Of a stretch of 64,000 bases of DNA, positions 6,187 to 64,000 are shown piece by piece. The DNA is from Kyrpidia tusciae DSM 2912. Lineage in GTDB: Bacteria; Bacillota; Bacilli; Kyrpidiales; Kyrpidiaceae. A program made the translations under genes and the position numbers. The first letter of the stretch is position 1, and the number at the start of each line of letters is the position of its first letter. The notes beneath the pieces are model-generated. The model had not been told where the DNA came from. It did not search any database and saw nothing but the letters and a program-made list of their open reading frames with translations. The stretch is from contig NC_014098.1 in the NCBI RefSeq assembly GCF_000092905.1, positions 2,046,001 through 2,110,000 on the forward strand, written 5' to 3'.

Positions 6187-6595
6187 ATATGTTGCTCCCT
6201 CACCACCTTCAATCGGTAGTATGACCAAACCCGCAAAGGACATTCCAATCGAAACCCGCGATGACCCGTGCCGAGTTTTCCGGGACTCTTCTCATTCAAT
6301 CGCACGATCCGGCATTGGATCATTCCGTAAAAATTTCTTCACAAGATCGCCTTTAAATATTGATCGATGTGAAGGGCGATATCCGTTGATCGACCAACAT
6401 TTTCACGGTAGAGTAAACGTGAAACTGGATCTGTGGGCGAATGTTATACATCCTGTCTGGTTTGGAGGCAATGAAAAACTGTCTGGAATTGGGCGCTTGG
6501 ACAGTTGGGAGCCAGTAGCGCAACCGGCCAATGTCTCGGGGAGATATTGGCCGTTTTTTGTGGTCCCAAACACCTCAATTGGAGGGATCCCACCG
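6187..6595. promoter_or_regulatory. Divergent intergenic region between the hydrogenase operon and the chemoreceptor
   Basis: About 410 bases separate two outward-facing transcription units and should hold both promoters. I could not fix convincing -35/-10 boxes. The chemoreceptor side contains a strong hairpin with a U-run (listed separately), and its ribosome binding site is GGAGGG at 6581-6586. Confidence 0.6.
6525..6559 (+). terminator. Terminator-like hairpin in the chemoreceptor leader (candidate attenuator)
   Basis: An 8-bp perfect stem (CGGCCAAT / ATTGGCCG) with a 13-base loop is followed at once by six T residues. It lies 22 bases before the ribosome binding site of the globin-coupled receptor. 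No gene on the plus strand ends upstream, so it is better explained as a conditional leader terminator than as the end of another transcript. A nearby ATTGGG at 6488-6493 could pair with the 5' arm as an antiterminator. Confidence 0.6.
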
Positions 6596-11305: not shown

Positions 11306-11548
11306 GCAAGTGAGGCGGATTTCCAGCGGGGTCCACATCTTCGGCCGGTTTTGTTGTTAGTGGCATGGCCCGTGACGCTGGTGCTTCGACTGGAAGAACT
11401 GCGACACGATCGCAAGGATTGGGATTGACCGGGCCGCGCAGGCGGCCCTTCTTTGCAAGCTGTTAATGCCTTTTGTAGAGACATTTCCCCGTCCGCCGTA
11501 TTTCCTCGCCCAACATCTCGGTCTCGAAGTCCTCGCGGCTGACATCCT

Positions 11549-11567
11549 CCCACCCCTGAAGGGTGGG
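11549..11567. repeat. IS605-type subterminal hairpin, right end
   Basis: The palindrome CCCACCC...GGGTGGG lies about 45 bases beyond the tnpB stop. Its sequence matches the left-end hairpin at 12975-12994, as expected for TnpA recognition sites. Confidence 0.75.
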
Positions 11568-11610
11568 GTTCCCCTTTAGGGACGGTCGGTTTACGGATGC
11601 CCAAACCGGC

Positions 11611-12516
11611 TTAAACAGCCTGTTTGAACGTCCCCTGTTCACGGCCTTTCGGTGTGGTTTTTCGCCACACGAACCGGTTGACCGCCGGGCGTGCCAGTGC
11701 GCCCACTACTCCCGACGGGTCCGGCCAAGCCCGACCCGCCTCACGGAGATACCTTTGCAGAATGTTGTACGCGCCCACCAGATCCGCGTTGAATGCTTGT
11801 CCGCAATGGAGAAACAACCCCCGCTGGATGCGGGCTGTTTTTACCCTCTTGTTGCAGAGGGGACATGTCGTGCTGGTGTTTTTCTCCGACACCTGGATGA
11901 CCCGGATGCCGGCTTCACGGTACTCAATCGGCACCCTATGGGCGATGTGCACATACCAGTCCCCGCTCGTGGGGTCGCAGGTCAACTTGACCTGCTGGAC
12001 TTTGCCCAGGGTGGTATCGGGAGGAAGATGGTATTCCAGCACCATTTCCCGGCGGGCGTAGGTCTTGGGCAACCTCAGCTTGACCCGGTTGCCCGGCAGG
12101 ATTTCAAAAGCCTTCTGTTTGAATGTTACGGTGCTTAATGTTTCCTTCTTCCGGAATCCCGGTGGACGTGCGCTTGGGTCGCCGTTTTTCCGGTGCGAAA
12201 ACCAGGAACGATACGAATCATCCAGTTCGCTCAGGATTTCCTGAGAACTCTGGGACGGGAGCAGCTTGTACCAGCGGTTCGTTTTCAACTCCCGGCACTG
12301 TTGCACAAAGTCTGGTATTTTGCCGGTCGCGCCCCAAACCGAACGCCGATGATGGTTGGCCACATTCCAGAGCTTGGTGGCGGCAAAACCCAGCAGGCCC
12401 AAAAGCAAGGCATCTTGGTCGGAAAGATCGACAACTTTCGCCTTTGCGGTGAGGGTCTGTATCGGCACGTCGTTGCCCGATTTTTTCGTTCGTGCCGGAC
12501 GAGCCAAACCGATCAC
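11611..12516 (-). CDS. tnpB: TnpB with most of the RuvC domain deleted (probably nuclease-dead)
   Basis: TnpB is the RNA-guided nuclease of IS605 elements, normally ~370-420 residues; this copy has 301. The N-terminal helical and WED-like part is intact up to TSGDWYVHIAHRVPIEY. The next residues are REAGIRVIQVSEKNTSTTCPLC, which normally follow ~130 residues later. The GxDxG segment (RuvC-I) and the E-containing RuvC-II segment are therefore absent. The zinc finger is altered (CPLC...HCG) and RuvC-III reads NADLVGAYNI. The frame stays open across the deletion. Start GTG at 12516 overlaps the tnpA stop. DNA cleavage should be lost; RNA or DNA binding might remain. Confidence 0.88.
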   Translation of the reverse strand: MIGLARPARTKKSGNDVPIQTLTAKAKVVDLSDQDALLLGLLGFAATKLWNVANHHRRSVWGATGKIPDFVQQCRELKTNRWYKLLPSQSSQEILSELDDSYRSWFSHRKNGDPSARPPGFRKKETLSTVTFKQKAFEILPGNRVKLRLPKTYARREMVLEYHLPPDTTLGKVQQVKLTCDPTSGDWYVHIAHRVPIEYREAGIRVIQVSEKNTSTTCPLCNKRVKTARIQRGLFLHCGQAFNADLVGAYNILQRYLREAGRAWPDPSGVVGALARPAVNRFVWRKTTPKGREQGTFKQAV

Positions 12517-12917
12517 CCCCGTTTCTTTTGCATTTCGATGTACTTGCGGATGGTATCGGAAGAAACGTTGCCAGCGGTGGAAACAAAATAGCTTCGCGTC
12601 CACATGGACGGCATACGGGCAATATGGTCAAACTCCCGACGAAGATGATGCGAGGATACCCCCTTTAACCGTGCCACAATATCGTGTGGTGCCAGTGTCG
12701 GCGGAGCGTTGACAAACAAATGGAGATGGTCCGGCATGATTTCGAGAGCAAGGATTTCCAAATCCAGTTTTTTAGCCACCTCCTGGATCAACTCTCTCAG
12801 CCTTGTTTCCACCGCCCCGACCAGGACCTTGCGCCGATAGCGAGGGCACCAAACGAAATGATAGTTCACCAACGATACAGACGTGTGTTTGTGTCTATAT
12901 TGATTATCCATAGACAC
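12513..12917 (-). CDS. tnpA: IS200-type Y1 transposase TnpA
   Basis: This 134-residue protein is of normal length for a Y1 HUH transposase. PDHLHLFV contains the HUH metal motif (His-hydrophobic-His), and SDTIRKYIEMQ supplies the catalytic Tyr near the C-terminus. YHFVWCPRYRRKVL is the conserved N-terminal strand-helix. It cuts and rejoins single-stranded element ends at the hairpins. The gene looks complete, and its stop overlaps the GTG of tnpB. Confidence 0.95.
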   Translation of the reverse strand: MSMDNQYRHKHTSVSLVNYHFVWCPRYRRKVLVGAVETRLRELIQEVAKKLDLEILALEIMPDHLHLFVNAPPTLAPHDIVARLKGVSSHHLRREFDHIARMPSMWTRSYFVSTAGNVSSDTIRKYIEMQKKRG

Positions 12918-12974
12918 ATTCTAGCAGAAACAGGACATTATAACAAGCATTGCCCGAAAACACCGCGCTTTCAT

Positions 12975-12994
12975 CCCACCCCTAAAGGGGTGGG
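12975..12994. repeat. IS605-type subterminal hairpin, left end
   Basis: A perfect 20-bp palindrome (9-bp arms, 2-base loop) lies about 58 bases upstream of the tnpA start, the usual position of the TnpA recognition hairpin. Confidence 0.85.
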
Positions 12995-13054: not shown

Positions 13055-14161
13055 TCAAACCCTGTACATGTTCATGAAATCTACGTTGGCCCTCAGTTTC
13101 TTGTCGGATTCGACGATCAGTTGCGCATTCAGCAACCGTTTCAGATCCCTCTGGGCCGTCTTTGCCGTGACGGATTCATACAGATGCGCTATGAACGGGT
13201 GCTTTTTGTGCCGGTATTCGTCAACGTACAGCTCACCCCCATTCAGAAGAAATTGCACCACGGAAAACATCCGGTTGTTAATGGCCTTTCGGCCGAGTTG
13301 CTCCAATAGGTAATTTTTGAACATGATCTCTTTGACATAGCCCAAGATCGTTTCTTGAACGCTTTGCAATTCCTCCAAAAACGCCCTGATACAGTATTTC
13401 ACGAAATTATTCAAATTTCCCTGGTCCATAAATCGGGCCTTGTTCAACTGGACGATATACTGGTCGCGATGACGGTAATGGTAGTTTGCAAGCGAATAGA
13501 ATCCTCTCACGTTATACCCACCCGTGTACAGGATAAAGGCCTCCAAGGCTCTGGACGTACGGCCGTTGCCATCCCCAAACGGGTGTATCGTGATCAAATA
13601 AAAATGAGCGATAATCGCACGAATCAAGGGGGCCAGACGATGCACCACATCGCCTGAGTTGATGAACTCCACAAATTTCTTCATCAGCGCGGGAATCTCG
13701 GTATAATCCGGAGGGGTGTAATCCCCGGCATGGACGTTGACCTGGCGGTACTGTCCTGGCACGTTATGATAATTGGACAAGCCTTCGGTGTTGATATAAT
13801 GTAACTTTTTGATGAAATCCTCGGAAATGTAGAGACTGCTGCTCCCGTGTTGTTCGTGATACTGACGGATAAAGAGTTGGACCTTGTGTGCGTTTACGGC
13901 TTCCTTCTCCGCCTCGCGGCCCGCTTTTCCGGACTCGATGACCTTTTTGATCTCCGCCTCGGTAAGAGCGTTCCCCTCCAATCCCGTCGTTCCCTTGATC
14001 TGCCGAATCATGTTCAGGCTGTCGAGTTCGCGTTGGACTGCGGGAGGCATCGGGATCTTCATGATGGACAGCCTGTACGCTTCTACCTGCACCAATAAAG
14101 ACAGCAGTTCCCGGTCGTCTGTGTCGATCTGATGGTTGAAATGCACCTGCCACCTCGCCAT
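13055..14161 (-). CDS. Fic family protein (AMPylase-type) with C-terminal winged helix
   Basis: This 368-residue protein has the core motif HPFGDGNGRTSR, the full Fic active site (HPFx[D/E]GNGR). A class II inhibitory helix precedes it: TTGLEGNALTEAEI has the (S/T)xxxE(G/N) pattern that blocks productive ATP binding, so activity is probably autoinhibited. The C-terminal ~70 residues (QFLLNGGELYVDEYRHK and TAKTAQRDLKRLLNAQLI) look like a winged-helix DNA-binding module. Such Fic proteins transfer AMP to Ser, Thr or Tyr of targets, often themselves or a topoisomerase. ATG 14161 has GGGGTGA upstream; an in-frame ATG at 14185 is the alternative. No FicA-type antitoxin is visible. Confidence 0.93.
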   Translation of the reverse strand: MARWQVHFNHQIDTDDRELLSLLVQVEAYRLSIMKIPMPPAVQRELDSLNMIRQIKGTTGLEGNALTEAEIKKVIESGKAGREAEKEAVNAHKVQLFIRQYHEQHGSSSLYISEDFIKKLHYINTEGLSNYHNVPGQYRQVNVHAGDYTPPDYTEIPALMKKFVEFINSGDVVHRLAPLIRAIIAHFYLITIHPFGDGNGRTSRALEAFILYTGGYNVRGFYSLANYHYRHRDQYIVQLNKARFMDQGNLNNFVKYCIRAFLEELQSVQETILGYVKEIMFKNYLLEQLGRKAINNRMFSVVQFLLNGGELYVDEYRHKKHPFIAHLYESVTAKTAQRDLKRLLNAQLIVESDKKLRANVDFMNMYRV

Positions 14162-14344
14162 AAACGTGTCACCCCGATGTCTCATGAATGTCCTGGGTAT
14201 TCATTAGTATTACGCTAAAAACCAAAGAAGGCAACACATAACTTGTCCAAAAAATTTCCGAAGTATGGCGGACTGGTTGCTAGAGGGCTGGAACTTAAAG
14301 AGAATTCTCCCGCTGCCCGCATAGGGTGAAAGGAGCTGGTACCC

Positions 14345-14926
14345 ATGAACACGCAGGAAATCGATCAGAAAGCCGAATTCCTCCGCCAGCAGCTCGGCGG
14401 CCTGATCGTCGCCTTCCCGACCGACGAGGCGGACCCATACTCGAAGTTCGCGGTCGTAGTCTATACGGGCGACGGGTTCCGGGCGTTCCCCAAACCGCTG
14501 GACGTGTCGGAGGCCGCGGCGGGGATCGCCTCCATGGTCGAGGGCCTGGATGAGAACGGCCACCGAGTGGATTTCGACAGGGAGGTCAGGTTTCTGGTTG
14601 GCGCAACACAGTTTAACGGGCCGAACGTGCTCATGAGGCGGCTGCGGGAGGATTCCCGGAACTATGATTCCCGCCGGATGGAGGACTTGGGCAGCGAGAC
14701 GGCTTTTACGCCGAGAGGGTTTGTGAATCCTCCCCCACTGAAGTGGGAGGCATCCATCCATAGGCACGGCAGAAGCTTCGGCACCCGGCAGCGGGGCTGC
14801 CACCCAAGCTTTCCTGACCCCTTAGGCTGGACGGGGTCCTGGATTCCCGGACACCTGCCGGGAACGTCGTCCCGGCGGCGACCACTCCCTTTCGGGAGTT
14901 GCAGGCTTTCGCAATATTATAGTTAA
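14345..14926 (+). CDS. Small repeated protein of unknown family, run-on into IS605-end sequence
   Basis: The first ~72 residues define a family seen three times in this window. The shared core is AEFLRQQLGGLI-x-AF-x2-DE-x-DPYSKFAVVVYTGDGFR-x-FP-x-PLD. The ATG follows AAAGGAG with good spacing. After about residue 75 the frame continues into sequence resembling the C-terminal tail of IS605 TnpBs and then through the GC-rich hairpin at 14729-14750. The true protein was therefore probably about 80-100 residues, and its 3' end was replaced by an IS remnant. I do not recognise the fold; the conserved Tyr/Gly/Asp-rich strand block suggests a small alpha-beta domain. Confidence 0.5.
   Translation: MNTQEIDQKAEFLRQQLGGLIVAFPTDEADPYSKFAVVVYTGDGFRAFPKPLDVSEAAAGIASMVEGLDENGHRVDFDREVRFLVGATQFNGPNVLMRRLREDSRNYDSRRMEDLGSETAFTPRGFVNPPPLKWEASIHRHGRSFGTRQRGCHPSFPDPLGWTGSWIPGHLPGTSSRRRPLPFGSCRLSQYYS
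14729..14750. repeat. IS605-type end hairpin (remnant)
   Basis: CCTCCCCCACT...AGTGGGAGG forms a hairpin like those at IS200/IS605 ends. No tnpA or tnpB gene is attached, so this is a solo end or decayed copy. Confidence 0.6.
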
Positions 14927-15318: not shown

Positions 15319-16587
15319 ATGGCGGGCGGAAAGAAAGAGGACAAGCCGGACGGCATACGGCCGGGCGGCCCGCCTGAACGGGAGACAGGGAGGCCGCCCG
15401 GCGCGTCGGCGCCTCGGTGGGGCCCTCTCGGGCGAGACCGGTTTTGGCTGGAGTTGACCGACGGGCGAATGTTCGCCATCGATGAAGAGACCCGGCGGGT
15501 GGTCGAGGATTTGCTTCGCGGTCTTTCTCCTGGGCAAATCGCCCGGGAGCGGGAAGTGGAGGAGGAAGATGTTCGGGCGGTGGCGCAGCTGTTGTCGGAT
15601 TCGATCCCGGCGGGAGAGACGGCGGGGGAAACCGCGGGCATAGAGCCGGCGGAAGAGGCCACCCCATCGGCCCCGGTCTCCCGGCCGTCGCCCGAACGTC
15701 GACACGTGGCGTCAAACGAAGCCCGGAATGTCGTTGACGCGCCGGGCGGGGCATTTGACCGCCTCCCGGCGAGGGCGGTGCCGATGGTTCTTTTCATCGC
15801 GGCAGTCTTGGCCGCATCCGCTGTGATCCAAATCCGTTTTGTCGCCGCGGTTCCGCCGGTCTGGGTGGCGGGACTCGCGGATCAATGGCTGGTCGCCGGT
15901 GCGCTGACGGTGGGGTTGATCCTCCATGAGACCGGGCATTGGCTGATCACCCCCCGGGAAATCCCCGGCCGGGTTCGCCTGGTCTGGTTCGGACCGATTC
16001 CCCTGTTGAGTTTGATCAATACCGAATTGTGGAAATGGCCCCGGTGGCGGCGGATCGCCGTCGACGCCGCCGGGGCGGGCATGGATCTGGCGGTGGGCGG
16101 GGTCGCGGCGGCACTCGGCCTCTTGCGGCCGGAACTCGGCCCTTTTGTGTGGTCGTTCTTATTCGTGCACTGGATCCGAATGTGCCTCGCCCTGATCCCG
16201 TTGTTTCAGGGAGACGGATATTTCTTGCTGGTCGATTGGCTCGGACGGCCGAATCTGTGGGGGGATGCGATCCGTTCGCTGAAGGCACGGCGCCTTCACT
16301 GGCTCAGTTTGTACGCGCTGCTGCGCGTGGCCTTGCAAGGGCTGAGTTGGGTATGGTTCTGGGCGTGGGTGGTTCAGGCGGCGCACATGTGGCGGCGGCT
16401 CCTCGTCGAAGGTGCGGGATGGTCGTTGTTGGTGCATCCGGCGGTGATCTTTGTTTGCCTCAGCGTTGCCGCGCAGGCTTTCGGCTGGGTGCGGTGGATC
16501 GCCTTTCGGGCGAGCCTGGCGCGGCGAATGCGAAACGGGGTTGCGGTAGAGCCGCCTGCACCTTCGTCCTGGGAACGTGAAGGATAA
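15319..16587 (+). CDS. Membrane M50-type metalloprotease with N-terminal PqqD-like domain (RiPP cluster)
   Basis: This 422-residue protein has three parts. Residues ~40-95 (FWLELTDGRMFAIDEETRRVV... then an acidic helix) resemble a PqqD-like peptide-binding domain, a RiPP recognition element candidate. Residues ~96-150 are a flexible linker. From ~153 on there are about six hydrophobic segments, with the zinc motif HETGH (203-207) inside one. The second motif is FQGDGYFLLVDWLGRPNLW (Asp299), matching the NPxxDGY-type motif of peptide zinc metalloproteases such as YydH. The start has AAAGGAG at the right distance. It lies 161 bases before an ATP-grasp ligase gene. It is likely to cleave, or cleave and export, the modified peptide. 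Confidence 0.82.
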   Translation: MAGGKKEDKPDGIRPGGPPERETGRPPGASAPRWGPLGRDRFWLELTDGRMFAIDEETRRVVEDLLRGLSPGQIAREREVEEEDVRAVAQLLSDSIPAGETAGETAGIEPAEEATPSAPVSRPSPERRHVASNEARNVVDAPGGAFDRLPARAVPMVLFIAAVLAASAVIQIRFVAAVPPVWVAGLADQWLVAGALTVGLILHETGHWLITPREIPGRVRLVWFGPIPLLSLINTELWKWPRWRRIAVDAAGAGMDLAVGGVAAALGLLRPELGPFVWSFLFVHWIRMCLALIPLFQGDGYFLLVDWLGRPNLWGDAIRSLKARRLHWLSLYALLRVALQGLSWVWFWAWVVQAAHMWRRLLVEGAGWSLLVHPAVIFVCLSVAAQAFGWVRWIAFRASLARRMRNGVAVEPPAPSSWEREG

Positions 16588-16748
16588 CCCGTTGCCGGGG
16601 AGTCGTCGGCCCGGCCGAACCAACCGCGGCGGGGCGGGGCTGCGACATCCCGGCAGGGTCGCAAGCCGCGGGACGGCCGGACGTCGGCGGACGGCCGGAC
16701 ACCGTCCGAGGATCGAACATGGTACACGGAGGAGGGGAGGGGCGGCAT

Positions 16749-17735
16749 ATGGCGAAAAAGCGCGTCGGCATCATCGGCTCGCCGTTGGAGCGCCACTGCA
16801 TCTATTTAGCCCGGGAAATCGAAAACCAGGGCGCCCAGGCGGTGGTGCTGAACACGGCTCCGAATATTCCCTTTCCGTTGACCTTGGAGGCGGGCTTGGA
16901 GGAGGTCGGCCCGGATCCCGGTTCCGGGGAAAGAGGACGGATGGTTCCTCAAAGTCGGGAGGAGTACGCGGGAATCGACCTGTGGGAGATCGGCGCTTTC
17001 TTTTTGCGGGTATTTTTCTTGCCGACGCCGGCGTTCGATCCGGACGTCGAAGCGTTAAAAGAGGGCGGCTATGTCGAATACGTGGCTCAGCGGGAGCGCT
17101 ATGCCGCTTGGTTGTCTTGGTTAAAATGGCTCTCTGAAACCGACCGGGTGCTGGTCAACCCAGTGGACACGTTGTTGATCCATTTTGCCAAGCCGTTCCA
17201 GATCGAGCGGCTCCGCCGGGCGGGAATCCCCGTGCCCCGGACGTTGGTGACGGGTGACGGGGAAACGGTCCGCGCCTTTGCGGCTGAACGCGAGGTGGTC
17301 TATAAACCGGTGGCCGGGGGTGCGCTTTGTCGGCGGCTGACCCGGGAGGATTTGAAGCCGGAGCGGCTGGAGCGGTTGGCCGGGGCCCCGGTGCTGTTTC
17401 AAGAATACATACCGGGCGAAGACATCCGGGTTTTTGTCCTCGGGGATCGCGTGATCGGGGCGTTCCGGATCGAGGGGGAAGGGCTGGATTACCGCGGCGG
17501 TGCGCACCGGGTCGAGGCGGTGGACATCGATAAAGACATCGCCCGGGCGAGCACGGCCGCCTGCCGGGCCCTGGGCCTTTTGTTCAGCGGGGTGGACGTG
17601 AAACGCCGGCCGGACGGCTCCTGGGTGATCCTCGAGTGTAACCCCGCTCCGATGTTTGAAGGGTTCGACACCGTGGCTTCGCCCACCATCGTCTCTCAAG
17701 TCGCCCGGTATCTGATCGAGGCTGCCCGGGGATAA
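16749..17735 (+). CDS. ATP-grasp peptide ligase of a graspetide-like RiPP cluster
   Basis: This 328-residue RimK-like ATP-grasp enzyme shows the Lys of the nucleotide pocket in VVYKPVAGG (Lys186), the loop FQEYIPGEDIRVFV (Glu219 and Asp225 region), and the metal-binding block GVDVKRRPDGSWVILECNPAP (Asp283, Arg286, Glu296, Asn298), as in microviridin-type ligases. These enzymes activate Asp or Glu side-chain carboxylates as acyl phosphates and join them to Ser/Thr hydroxyls or Lys amines of a precursor. The ATG at 16749 follows a G-rich ribosome binding site. The precursor gene with Glu-Glu and Thr/Ser repeats begins 91 bases downstream. A RimK or glutathione-synthase-like role elsewhere is less likely in this context. 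Confidence 0.85.
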   Translation: MAKKRVGIIGSPLERHCIYLAREIENQGAQAVVLNTAPNIPFPLTLEAGLEEVGPDPGSGERGRMVPQSREEYAGIDLWEIGAFFLRVFFLPTPAFDPDVEALKEGGYVEYVAQRERYAAWLSWLKWLSETDRVLVNPVDTLLIHFAKPFQIERLRRAGIPVPRTLVTGDGETVRAFAAEREVVYKPVAGGALCRRLTREDLKPERLERLAGAPVLFQEYIPGEDIRVFVLGDRVIGAFRIEGEGLDYRGGAHRVEAVDIDKDIARASTAACRALGLLFSGVDVKRRPDGSWVILECNPAPMFEGFDTVASPTIVSQVARYLIEAARG

Positions 17736-17826
17736 GGGCCGCCGGCGATCAGGGACGGACGGATGTGCCCGGGGCCGGCGCCGGTGACGGCACCGGGAGC
17801 AACCCTCTCGAAAGGAGGTGACAAGT

Positions 17827-18084
17827 ATGGCGAAAAAGCGTCTTTTTATCGAGCAGTTGGAGGAGCGTCAGTCGACCTCGCCCCTGTTCGTCACCCCTGT
17901 GGATCCTTCGCTGATCATGACCACCATGATGGTCGGTGAAGAAGGCGGTCCGATTCATCCGCCGATCACCACCCAGGCCATCGGGGAAGAGGGGGGGATC
18001 ACGATGGCGTTCGGTGAAGAGGGCATGCACTTCACTTCGATGTTGTACGGCGAGGAAGGGGGGCATTTTATCCCCTTGGGGTGA
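17827..18084 (+). CDS. Candidate graspetide precursor peptide with four GEEG repeats
   Basis: This 85-residue peptide has a charged leader (MAKKRLFIEQLEERQ; helix-forming) and a core of four repeats: TTMMVGEEGG (32-41), TTQAIGEEGG (48-57), ITMAFGEEGM (58-67) and TSMLYGEEGG (70-79). Each puts one or two Thr/Ser hydroxyls three to four residues before a Gly-Glu-Glu-Gly acceptor, the donor-acceptor pairing used by ATP-grasp ligases for omega-ester links. There are no Lys residues in the core, so esters rather than amides are expected. The ribosome binding site AAAGGAGG is near-perfect, and the gene is closed by a strong terminator, consistent with high expression. A GTG at 17818 is an unlikely alternative start. 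Confidence 0.82.
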   Translation: MAKKRLFIEQLEERQSTSPLFVTPVDPSLIMTTMMVGEEGGPIHPPITTQAIGEEGGITMAFGEEGMHFTSMLYGEEGGHFIPLG

Positions 18085-18101
18085 TCCGCTGTCTCTCGCG
18101 A

Positions 18102-18154
18102 GGCTGTCCCAAAAGGGGCGTGAAACGGCCCGATGGGGACAGCCCCGATTTTTT
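18102..18154 (+). terminator. Intrinsic terminator after the RiPP precursor gene
   Basis: GGCTGTCCC at 18102-18110 pairs with GGGACAGCC at 18136-18144, followed by TTTTTT at 18149-18154. It lies 18 bases after the precursor stop codon. Confidence 0.8.
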
Positions 18155-18435
18155 GACGGTCGTCCATGAAGTGATGATTGTCTTGTAAACCTGAATCCGT
18201 GATATTTTGGCAGCGGGGATAGCGCCCTGCCGGCGGTCGCAAACCCGATCCTTGTCGCGCATAGCCAAGGCTTTGCGCGAGAAACGCTTTCGGAGAACGA
18301 ACGATCCGATGATTTTACTCGTTGATGGAGAGCATCGAGAAGACATGCTGGTTCAAAGCTCACGGTCGAATGAGGGGATTCAAGGGATGCCATACCCGCG
18401 GCCCTCCCCAGCAGGGCCGAAAGACGTCCCGCATC

Positions 18436-41007: not shown

Positions 41008-41119
41008 CTCTTATCCAGAGTGGCGGAGGGACTGGCCCGATGAAGCCCGGCAACCACCGGAATGCCCGGAGAGGTGCCAATTCCTGCAGGCTGCGTGAGC
41101 GGCCTGAGAGATGAGAGGA
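41008..41119 (+). promoter_or_regulatory. SAM-I (S-box) riboswitch
   Basis: The conserved S-box core is plain: CTTATCCAGAGTGGCGGAGG, then GACTGGCCCGATGAAGCCCGGCAACC, and the closing GAGAGATGAGAGG. It binds S-adenosylmethionine and is followed by an intrinsic terminator and then the gamma-synthase gene, so high SAM should stop transcription early. Confidence 0.96.
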
Positions 41120-63686: not shown

Positions 63687-64000
63687 TCAAGTACCCGTCC
63701 CTTGCGGGGCAGGGGCGCCGGTCTTACCCAGTTGCCTAGTGCCGGCTTCCCGTTTCATCGAAGACCGCCCGGCCAAGTCGGGTCTTACATCCTCTCCACG
63801 GGCGTTTTTCGTCTCCGGTCCACTCCCGGCGACGGCGACCGCAAGAGCCGCCAGATTCCGCGCCGCATTCTCGTCCCGGTCCATCACCGTCCCGCATACG
63901 TCACATCGGTACACCCGTTCCCAAAGCGGAAGGATTTCCTTGATCGCCCCGCACCTGGAGCAGGTCTTGGAACTGGGATACATCCTGGGGGCCTGGACGA
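63687..64000 (-). CDS. tnpB: 3' end of a TnpB gene (5' part off the window)
   Basis: The frame is open to the right edge. SSKTCSRCGAIK and YRCDVCGTVMDRDENAARNL give the four-Cys zinc finger and the RuvC-III Asp of TnpB. In contrast to the copy at 11611 the finger and RuvC-III are intact here; the rest cannot be judged. The protein ends ...KTGAPAPQGTGT at 63687. It is part of another IS605/IS1341-type element. Confidence 0.92.
   Translation of the reverse strand, partial: VQAPRMYPSSKTCSRCGAIKEILPLWERVYRCDVCGTVMDRDENAARNLAALAVAVAGSGPETKNARGEDVRPDLAGRSSMKREAGTRQLGKTGAPAPQGTGT

Follow-up and report, generated by a model that had tools for sequence, protein, structure and literature searches.

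The 64,000-nucleotide stretch of the Kyrpidia tusciae DSM 2912 genome analyzed here (contig NC_014098.1, positions 2,046,001 to 2,110,000; hereafter the window) carries, at 15319-18154, three same-strand genes and a terminator that, judging from their sequences, very probably direct the synthesis of a small, ring-stapled plesiocin-type peptide. We consider it likely that they form a plesiocin-type (group 2-like) graspetide pathway, in which an ATP-grasp ligase would install ester staples in an 85-residue precursor, while an M50 protease fused to a recognition element (RRE) of ribosomally synthesized and post-translationally modified peptides (RiPPs) would remove the leader in place of a C39 transporter. 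The chemistry is of a known kind, and the novelty lies in the RRE-M50 maturation partner, which is unusual and recurrent; no description of an RRE-M50 protein combined with a plesiocin-type graspetide was found in the open-access literature. The initial annotation of this DNA had proposed a graspetide cluster that includes its own M50 protease, and both the homology of the ligase to the plesiocin synthetase PsnB and the recurrence of the gene set support that proposal.

The unit lies on the plus strand in the order protease, ligase, precursor (M50-B-A, with B the ligase and A the precursor) and comprises an RRE-M50 intramembrane metalloprotease gene (15319-16587, 422 aa), an ATP-grasp ligase gene (16749-17735), the precursor gene (17827-18084, 85 aa), and an intrinsic terminator (18099-18154) with a hairpin and T run, which a simple terminator scan also finds; the terminator region (18085-18160) has a folding energy of -39.2 kcal/mol (z -3.9). 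These elements sit where they had been annotated, with minor start corrections for the ligase and the precursor. For the ligase, the ATG at 16749 is preferred over the start of the longer frame at 16719 because GGAGGAGGGGAGGGG lies directly upstream of it, while the strong ribosome binding site claimed for the peptide is present as AAAGGAGGTGA (17811-17821), 5 nt before the ATG at 17827. The three genes have no transporter gene among them or as an immediate neighbor.

Among all PDB chains searched with phmmer, the ligase matched 7drm_A at 1.4e-46, with 9bou next at 2.3e-12 and RimK-like enzymes thereafter. We take 7drm_A to be PsnB, as its PDB entry also names the PsnA2 peptide, and it is the nearest solved structure by ~34 orders of magnitude. 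A six-member ligase profile gave the same picture against the PDB, matching PsnB at 6.9e-76 and its next match at 7.4e-21, with AMdnB at 1.6e-18, the ATP grasp ligase 5ig9 at 2.7e-17, and CdnC at 4.3e-13. By sequence, then, this gene, which is single-copy in its own genome, encodes a PsnB-like ligase of the graspetide synthetase type. A RimK-like ATP-grasp ligase beside a repeat peptide had been read as the graspetide hallmark, and that reading is strengthened by a closest solved homologue that is PsnB with its precursor bound.

The precursor consists of a leader followed by four predicted hairpin cores, and has homologues at six other loci. Its leader and the conserved segment that follows (KKRLFIEQLEERQSTSPLFVxPVDPSLI, 17827-17919) are kept in all M50-associated bacterial precursors with mostly synonymous changes. 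Specifically, the first 31 codons show 16 differences from an Alicyclobacillaceae homologue (14 synonymous, 2 non-synonymous), and comparison of the leader with a more distant homologue in genome G036 gave 15 synonymous and 5 non-synonymous changes over 22 codons; the reading frame is therefore a conserved protein under purifying selection. The leader motif LFIEQL stands where chain E of 7drm (the PsnA2 14-38 peptide, which reads LFIEDLGKVTGGKGGPYTTLAIGEE) has LFIEDL, and the precursor thus carries an LFIEDL-type leader motif like that of plesiocin-type graspetides. Between leader and core, the M50-associated bacterial precursors have in common a segment SSPLF(V/I)xPxDPxL, with small variations, at the place where PsnA2 has TGGKGG, which by our own reading is a double-glycine site.

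The four cores are TTMMVGEE (17920-17943), TTQAIGEE (17968-17991), ITMAFGEE (17998-18021), and TSMLYGEE (18034-18057), and the TTxxxxEE motif of tandem plesiocin cores is present in repeats 1, 2, and 4, with Ser for Thr in the fourth. When the peptide was shuffled 200,000 times at constant composition, no shuffle produced three of its four [TSI][TS]xxxxEEG motifs, and of the 1,183 stop-to-stop segments in the window one has three [TS][TS]xxxxEE motifs and none has two. The annotated series of four Thr/Ser...GEEG repeats therefore holds for the GEE repeats, which are all present and beyond chance, but not for every hydroxyl residue, as the third repeat lacks the outer one and so is without one donor. 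The suggestion that the GEEG core is a new type was ruled out, as chain E of 7drm shows the same kind of core, TTLAIGEE, for plesiocin. Among 31 repeats from nine precursors, GEE is invariant and hydroxyl residues occupy both donor positions in all but one (30/31), while loop positions 3-5 vary, positions 3 and 5 most of all (2.4 and 2.3 bits), which would fit a group of inhibitors that differ in their specificity loops. The ligase is thus accompanied by an adjacent putative graspetide precursor, with a leader and a core of Thr/Ser donors and Glu acceptors.

The remaining gene, that of the protease, encodes a hydrophobic protein with about six hydrophobic segments, an HETGH zinc-binding motif at residue 203 (15925-15939), and GDGY at residue 298, of which GDG (16210-16218) is the probable third zinc ligand. 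The H, E, G, and H of HETGH are invariant across six bacterial and archaeal homologues, and GDGY is invariant in all homologues; the combination of HExxH and a distal Asp motif, in a membrane protein that is polytopic, marks it as a putative M50 RiPP maturation protease. Pfam Peptidase_M50 was matched weakly (0.16 for the protease alone, 3e-4 for one homologue). The NCBIfam daptide_HExxH family was matched by all six bacterial homologues (best 1e-13), far below the 300-bit cut-off of this daptide intramembrane metalloprotease family (NF041824), and that of the YydH/LiaK epipeptide maturation proteases by four of the six (best 5e-8, also below its cut-off). On these profile matches the protein is a relative of the daptide and YydH/LiaK proteases and not a member of either family, and its annotation as a membrane M50-type protease is borne out by its motifs, hydrophobic segments, and RiPP protease matches.

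Its N-terminal domain (15409-15612) had been called PqqD-like, an assignment that is supported by predicted fold and not by sequence family. Modeled alone, the 68 residues 31-98 gave an AlphaFold pLDDT of 93.6 and the order beta-beta-beta-alpha-alpha-alpha, i.e., the beta3-alpha3 winged-helix fold of an RRE as predicted. Ranks 1-7 in VIA-align were all RRE-bearing RiPP proteins with the RRE at the matched place, including TigE (Z 7.3, root-mean-square deviation 1.8 over 66 residues), a sactipeptide enzyme (7.1), TbiB1 with leader (6.3), and McbB (5.9), while MibB and ThcOx were further, lower-ranked matches with the RRE likewise at the matched place; the range for RREs was Z 5.9-7.3 with deviations of 1.8-3.0 over 61-66 residues, where a Z below 8 may also stem from an arrangement that is simply common. 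Foldseek likewise ranked TbiB1 first, with an E-value that was not significant. Pfam detected no PqqD in the domain, and an RRE sequence profile found nothing significant in the PDB, where TfuB1, which we take to be a lasso-peptide RRE, stood at E 0.1.

The set recurs in other genomes, among them Paenibacillaceae and, on a plasmid, haloarchaea, and the order of its genes varies. Among 399 genomes of class Bacilli, the ligase profile matched four and the protease profile the same four and no other, although two of the four come from one family and they are not four fully independent events. The Alicyclobacillaceae metagenome-assembled genome Bu37 (L004/L028) has a five-repeat precursor, protease, and ligase in the order A-M50-B, whereas the order is A-B-M50 in genomes G036 (L003/L026; three-repeat precursor), G410 (L024; four repeats), and G479 (L025; four repeats); a further genome, G080 (L012/L027), has ligase then protease on a contig that starts just upstream. 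In the archaeon Halocatena salina, plasmid NZ_CP096022.1 (L014:5542-7529) carries an unannotated single-repeat precursor (HFIEELEERENATPIGVTTMAMGEE), a ligase with 36% identity, and an RRE-M50 protein annotated as hypothetical, again as A-B-M50. Three complete gene arrangements (M50-B-A, A-M50-B, and A-B-M50) hence keep the same partners, and the initial expectation that the ligase occurs beside a repeat peptide in related genomes is borne out. On plasmid NZ_CP099994.1 of Halorussus salilacus (L015:4943-8340), two tandem graspetide-like ligases accompany an RRE-M50 protein on the other strand, and no TTxxxxEE peptide was found at this locus. A short FIEALGEE reading frame there (L015:7075-7200) is a guess only. 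In genomes G638, G726, and G752, from other classes and with ligases at ~1e-27, the short stretch that was read contained neither an M50-RRE protein nor a TTxxxxEE peptide. We considered and rejected a spread of the bacterial form by phages or plasmids: the precursor had no plasmid match, the protease had none at E 1e-5, and viral contigs gave no matches, the phage matches of the ligase being distant RimK-like proteins only.

From these features we infer a pathway in which the ATP-grasp ligase would bind the LFIEQL leader, phosphorylate every GEE on its Glu side chains, and form esters between these and the Thr/Ser pair within that repeat. Since the third repeat lacks its outer donor, seven esters are predicted, and the product would carry up to seven omega-esters (2+2+1+2, -126 Da) in four hairpins on one chain. 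The calculated monoisotopic mass of the unmodified precursor with Met1 is 9232.49 Da, and seven esters would lower it to 9106.41 Da. The RRE-M50 protein would grip the precursor via its RRE, probably at the KKRLFIEQLEERQSTSPLFVTPVDP segment, cut it at the membrane, remove the leader, and perhaps release the product outside, replacing the C39/NHLM transporter-peptidase usual in group 2. As with plesiocin, the product most likely acts as a multivalent inhibitor of serine proteases.

Group 2 graspetides usually come with an NHLM-type transporter (PMC13097080), which is a frequent companion of the synthetase and not strictly defining (PMC13097080), and none is found beside the synthetase here. Genome G036, which has the full set, showed no C39 domain by profile at the threshold used, while the same search matched 8 of 14 control genomes. 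EpeP, the M50 protease of epipeptides, is thought both to cleave and to export (PMC10885120; PMC7614699). An RRE-M50 protein that likewise cleaves and exports this graspetide is the most economical model.

Several observations weigh against this pathway. The AlphaFold model of the whole protease is poor (pLDDT 55), the ligase and protease are both frameshifted in G479, and the ligase is frameshifted in G080. Paenibacillus xerothermodurans (L005) has a one-repeat precursor and ligase with no M50 gene nearby, and the protease is therefore not a universal partner. Finally, a single C39 transporter is encoded elsewhere in the K. tusciae genome, in a lanthipeptide cluster, and could act in trans. 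As to the first of these, a structure search with the whole-protein model was discarded, as its matches are meaningless at that pLDDT. The frameshifts in G479 and G080 may be decay or sequencing error.

The most durable of the alternatives, though an unlikely one in our assessment, gives the RRE-M50 protein the role of a membrane scaffold, immunity factor, or exporter in an otherwise ordinary plesiocin-type pathway and leaves leader removal to a general cellular protease or other enzyme. Deletion of EpeP failed to abolish epipeptide production (PMC10885120), which would suit such a role, as would the locus of P. xerothermodurans, and cleavage by the RRE-M50 protein is what we infer here. A pure scaffold would nevertheless have no need of HExxH and GDG, which are invariant up to and including the archaeal homologues, and the similarity to RiPP maturation proteases also speaks for catalysis.

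The genome of K. tusciae further holds two orphan precursor genes with nearly the same leader, both on the minus strand and 0.83 Mb from the cluster, with no ligase near them: one intact with five repeats (G000:C1:2898598-2898915; L060:8599-8916) and one with four repeats and one in-frame stop (approximately G000:C1:2904753-2905088; L060:14754-15089). They adjoin a class II lanthipeptide region encoding a lichenicidin-like peptide, LanM, a subtilisin-like protease, and a C39 transporter. This lanthipeptide cluster (~2.90-2.92 Mb; L061:356-8106 and L060:12167-16051) has an intact LanM, and a second, truncated LanM copy lies among mobile elements in the same region. In Bu37 the graspetide set directly follows lichenicidin-like peptides, and this therefore suggests that the set once lived beside the lanthipeptide cluster, in which case the ligase and protease of K. 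tusciae would now act in trans.

The same neighborhood raises a second alternative, namely that the C39 transporter encoded at 2.916 Mb in the lanthipeptide cluster matures and exports these precursors in trans, with cuts after the GG of GEEGG linkers that would give single hairpins. A distance of 10-17 kb separates this transporter from the orphan precursors, and most repeats end in GEEGG. We nonetheless judge this quite improbable, given that G036 has the full set and no C39 domain at the profile threshold used, that the protease tracks the ligase in four of four genomes, and that the precursor, unlike PsnA2 with its TGGKGG, has no double-glycine site before the first core.

That the locus is a decaying or silent relic without a product seems more doubtful still: two relatives have ligase frameshifts, one orphan precursor has a stop codon, and the two other genomes of the same genus are without the set, but in the window the three reading frames are intact, their ribosome binding sites are good, a terminator is present, and the leader is under purifying selection. 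That the ligase attaches an amino acid or forms amides in the manner of RimK, with no esters within the repeats, is scarcely credible, for although its ATP-grasp domain has the RimK fold (Pfam RimK 1.5e-10), PsnB outscores RimK, LysX, and microviridin ligases by far and its substrate motif resembles that of PsnB in kind.

Elsewhere in the window, an IS200/IS605-type element (11545-12994) carries TnpA-like (12513-12917) and TnpB-like (11611-12603) genes between hairpin ends, and a hairpin resembling these ends stands alone just upstream of the cluster (14729-14751). A Fic/DOC family protein is encoded on the minus strand (13055-14185), also upstream of the cluster. Rfam models identified a cyclic di-GMP-II riboswitch (6456-6538, plus strand), an S-adenosylmethionine (SAM) riboswitch (41008-41117, plus strand), and a Transposase-2 RNA (63690-63756, minus strand). 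A comparison with the sister genome G001 gave no clean empty site, since nearby alignment is limited to the downstream regulator region and the order is rearranged.

The leader-removing protease is unknown for many graspetides (PMC8939145, PMC12291112), and here a dedicated candidate stands beside the synthetase and follows it into distant genomes, archaea included, so that three genes suffice to address the question directly. Fusion of an RRE to an intramembrane protease would make for a compact module of maturation, whose binding site is predicted by the leader segment that M50-associated precursors have in common; versions from thermophile relatives and halophiles may serve as robust tools for stapled-peptide engineering. 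More tentatively, and with less confidence than we would need to favor it, the set may represent a transporter-free graspetide route of Bacillota and haloarchaea, in which an RRE-fused intramembrane protease would recognize, mature, and possibly secrete plesiocin-like hairpin inhibitors, and one ligase-protease pair would also serve precursors encoded at a distance on its own chromosome.

Among known systems, the closest is the plesiocin pathway (PsnA/PsnB, group 2), which has in common with the present one a PsnB-like ligase, the LFIE leader motif, and tandem TTxxxxEE hairpin cores. Plesiocin itself is tetravalent, each repeat holding two esters (PMC12291112), whereas the present precursor includes one single-acceptor repeat, has linkers without GDPSAG, and is accompanied by orphan precursors in trans. 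The present cluster also differs in having an RRE-M50 protease and no NHLM/C39 transporter beside it, and in having SSPLFVxPVDPxLI between leader and core where the plesiocin pathway has TGGKGG. The epipeptide system EpeXEPAB (YydFGHIJ) likewise places an M50-type RiPP maturation protease (EpeP/YydH), to which the present protease has a weak but significant profile match, beside its precursor, but its modifying enzyme is a radical SAM epimerase rather than an ATP-grasp ligase. Daptide systems resemble this one through the intramembrane metalloprotease family that the bacterial homologues match, while no other daptide gene was seen beside the protease, whose companions here are an ATP-grasp ligase and a TTxxxxEE precursor. 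The pearlin proteases TglG and TmoG are also membrane M50 proteases acting on a RiPP peptide (PMC10885120), though they release one C-terminal modified amino acid and belong to an unrelated modification.

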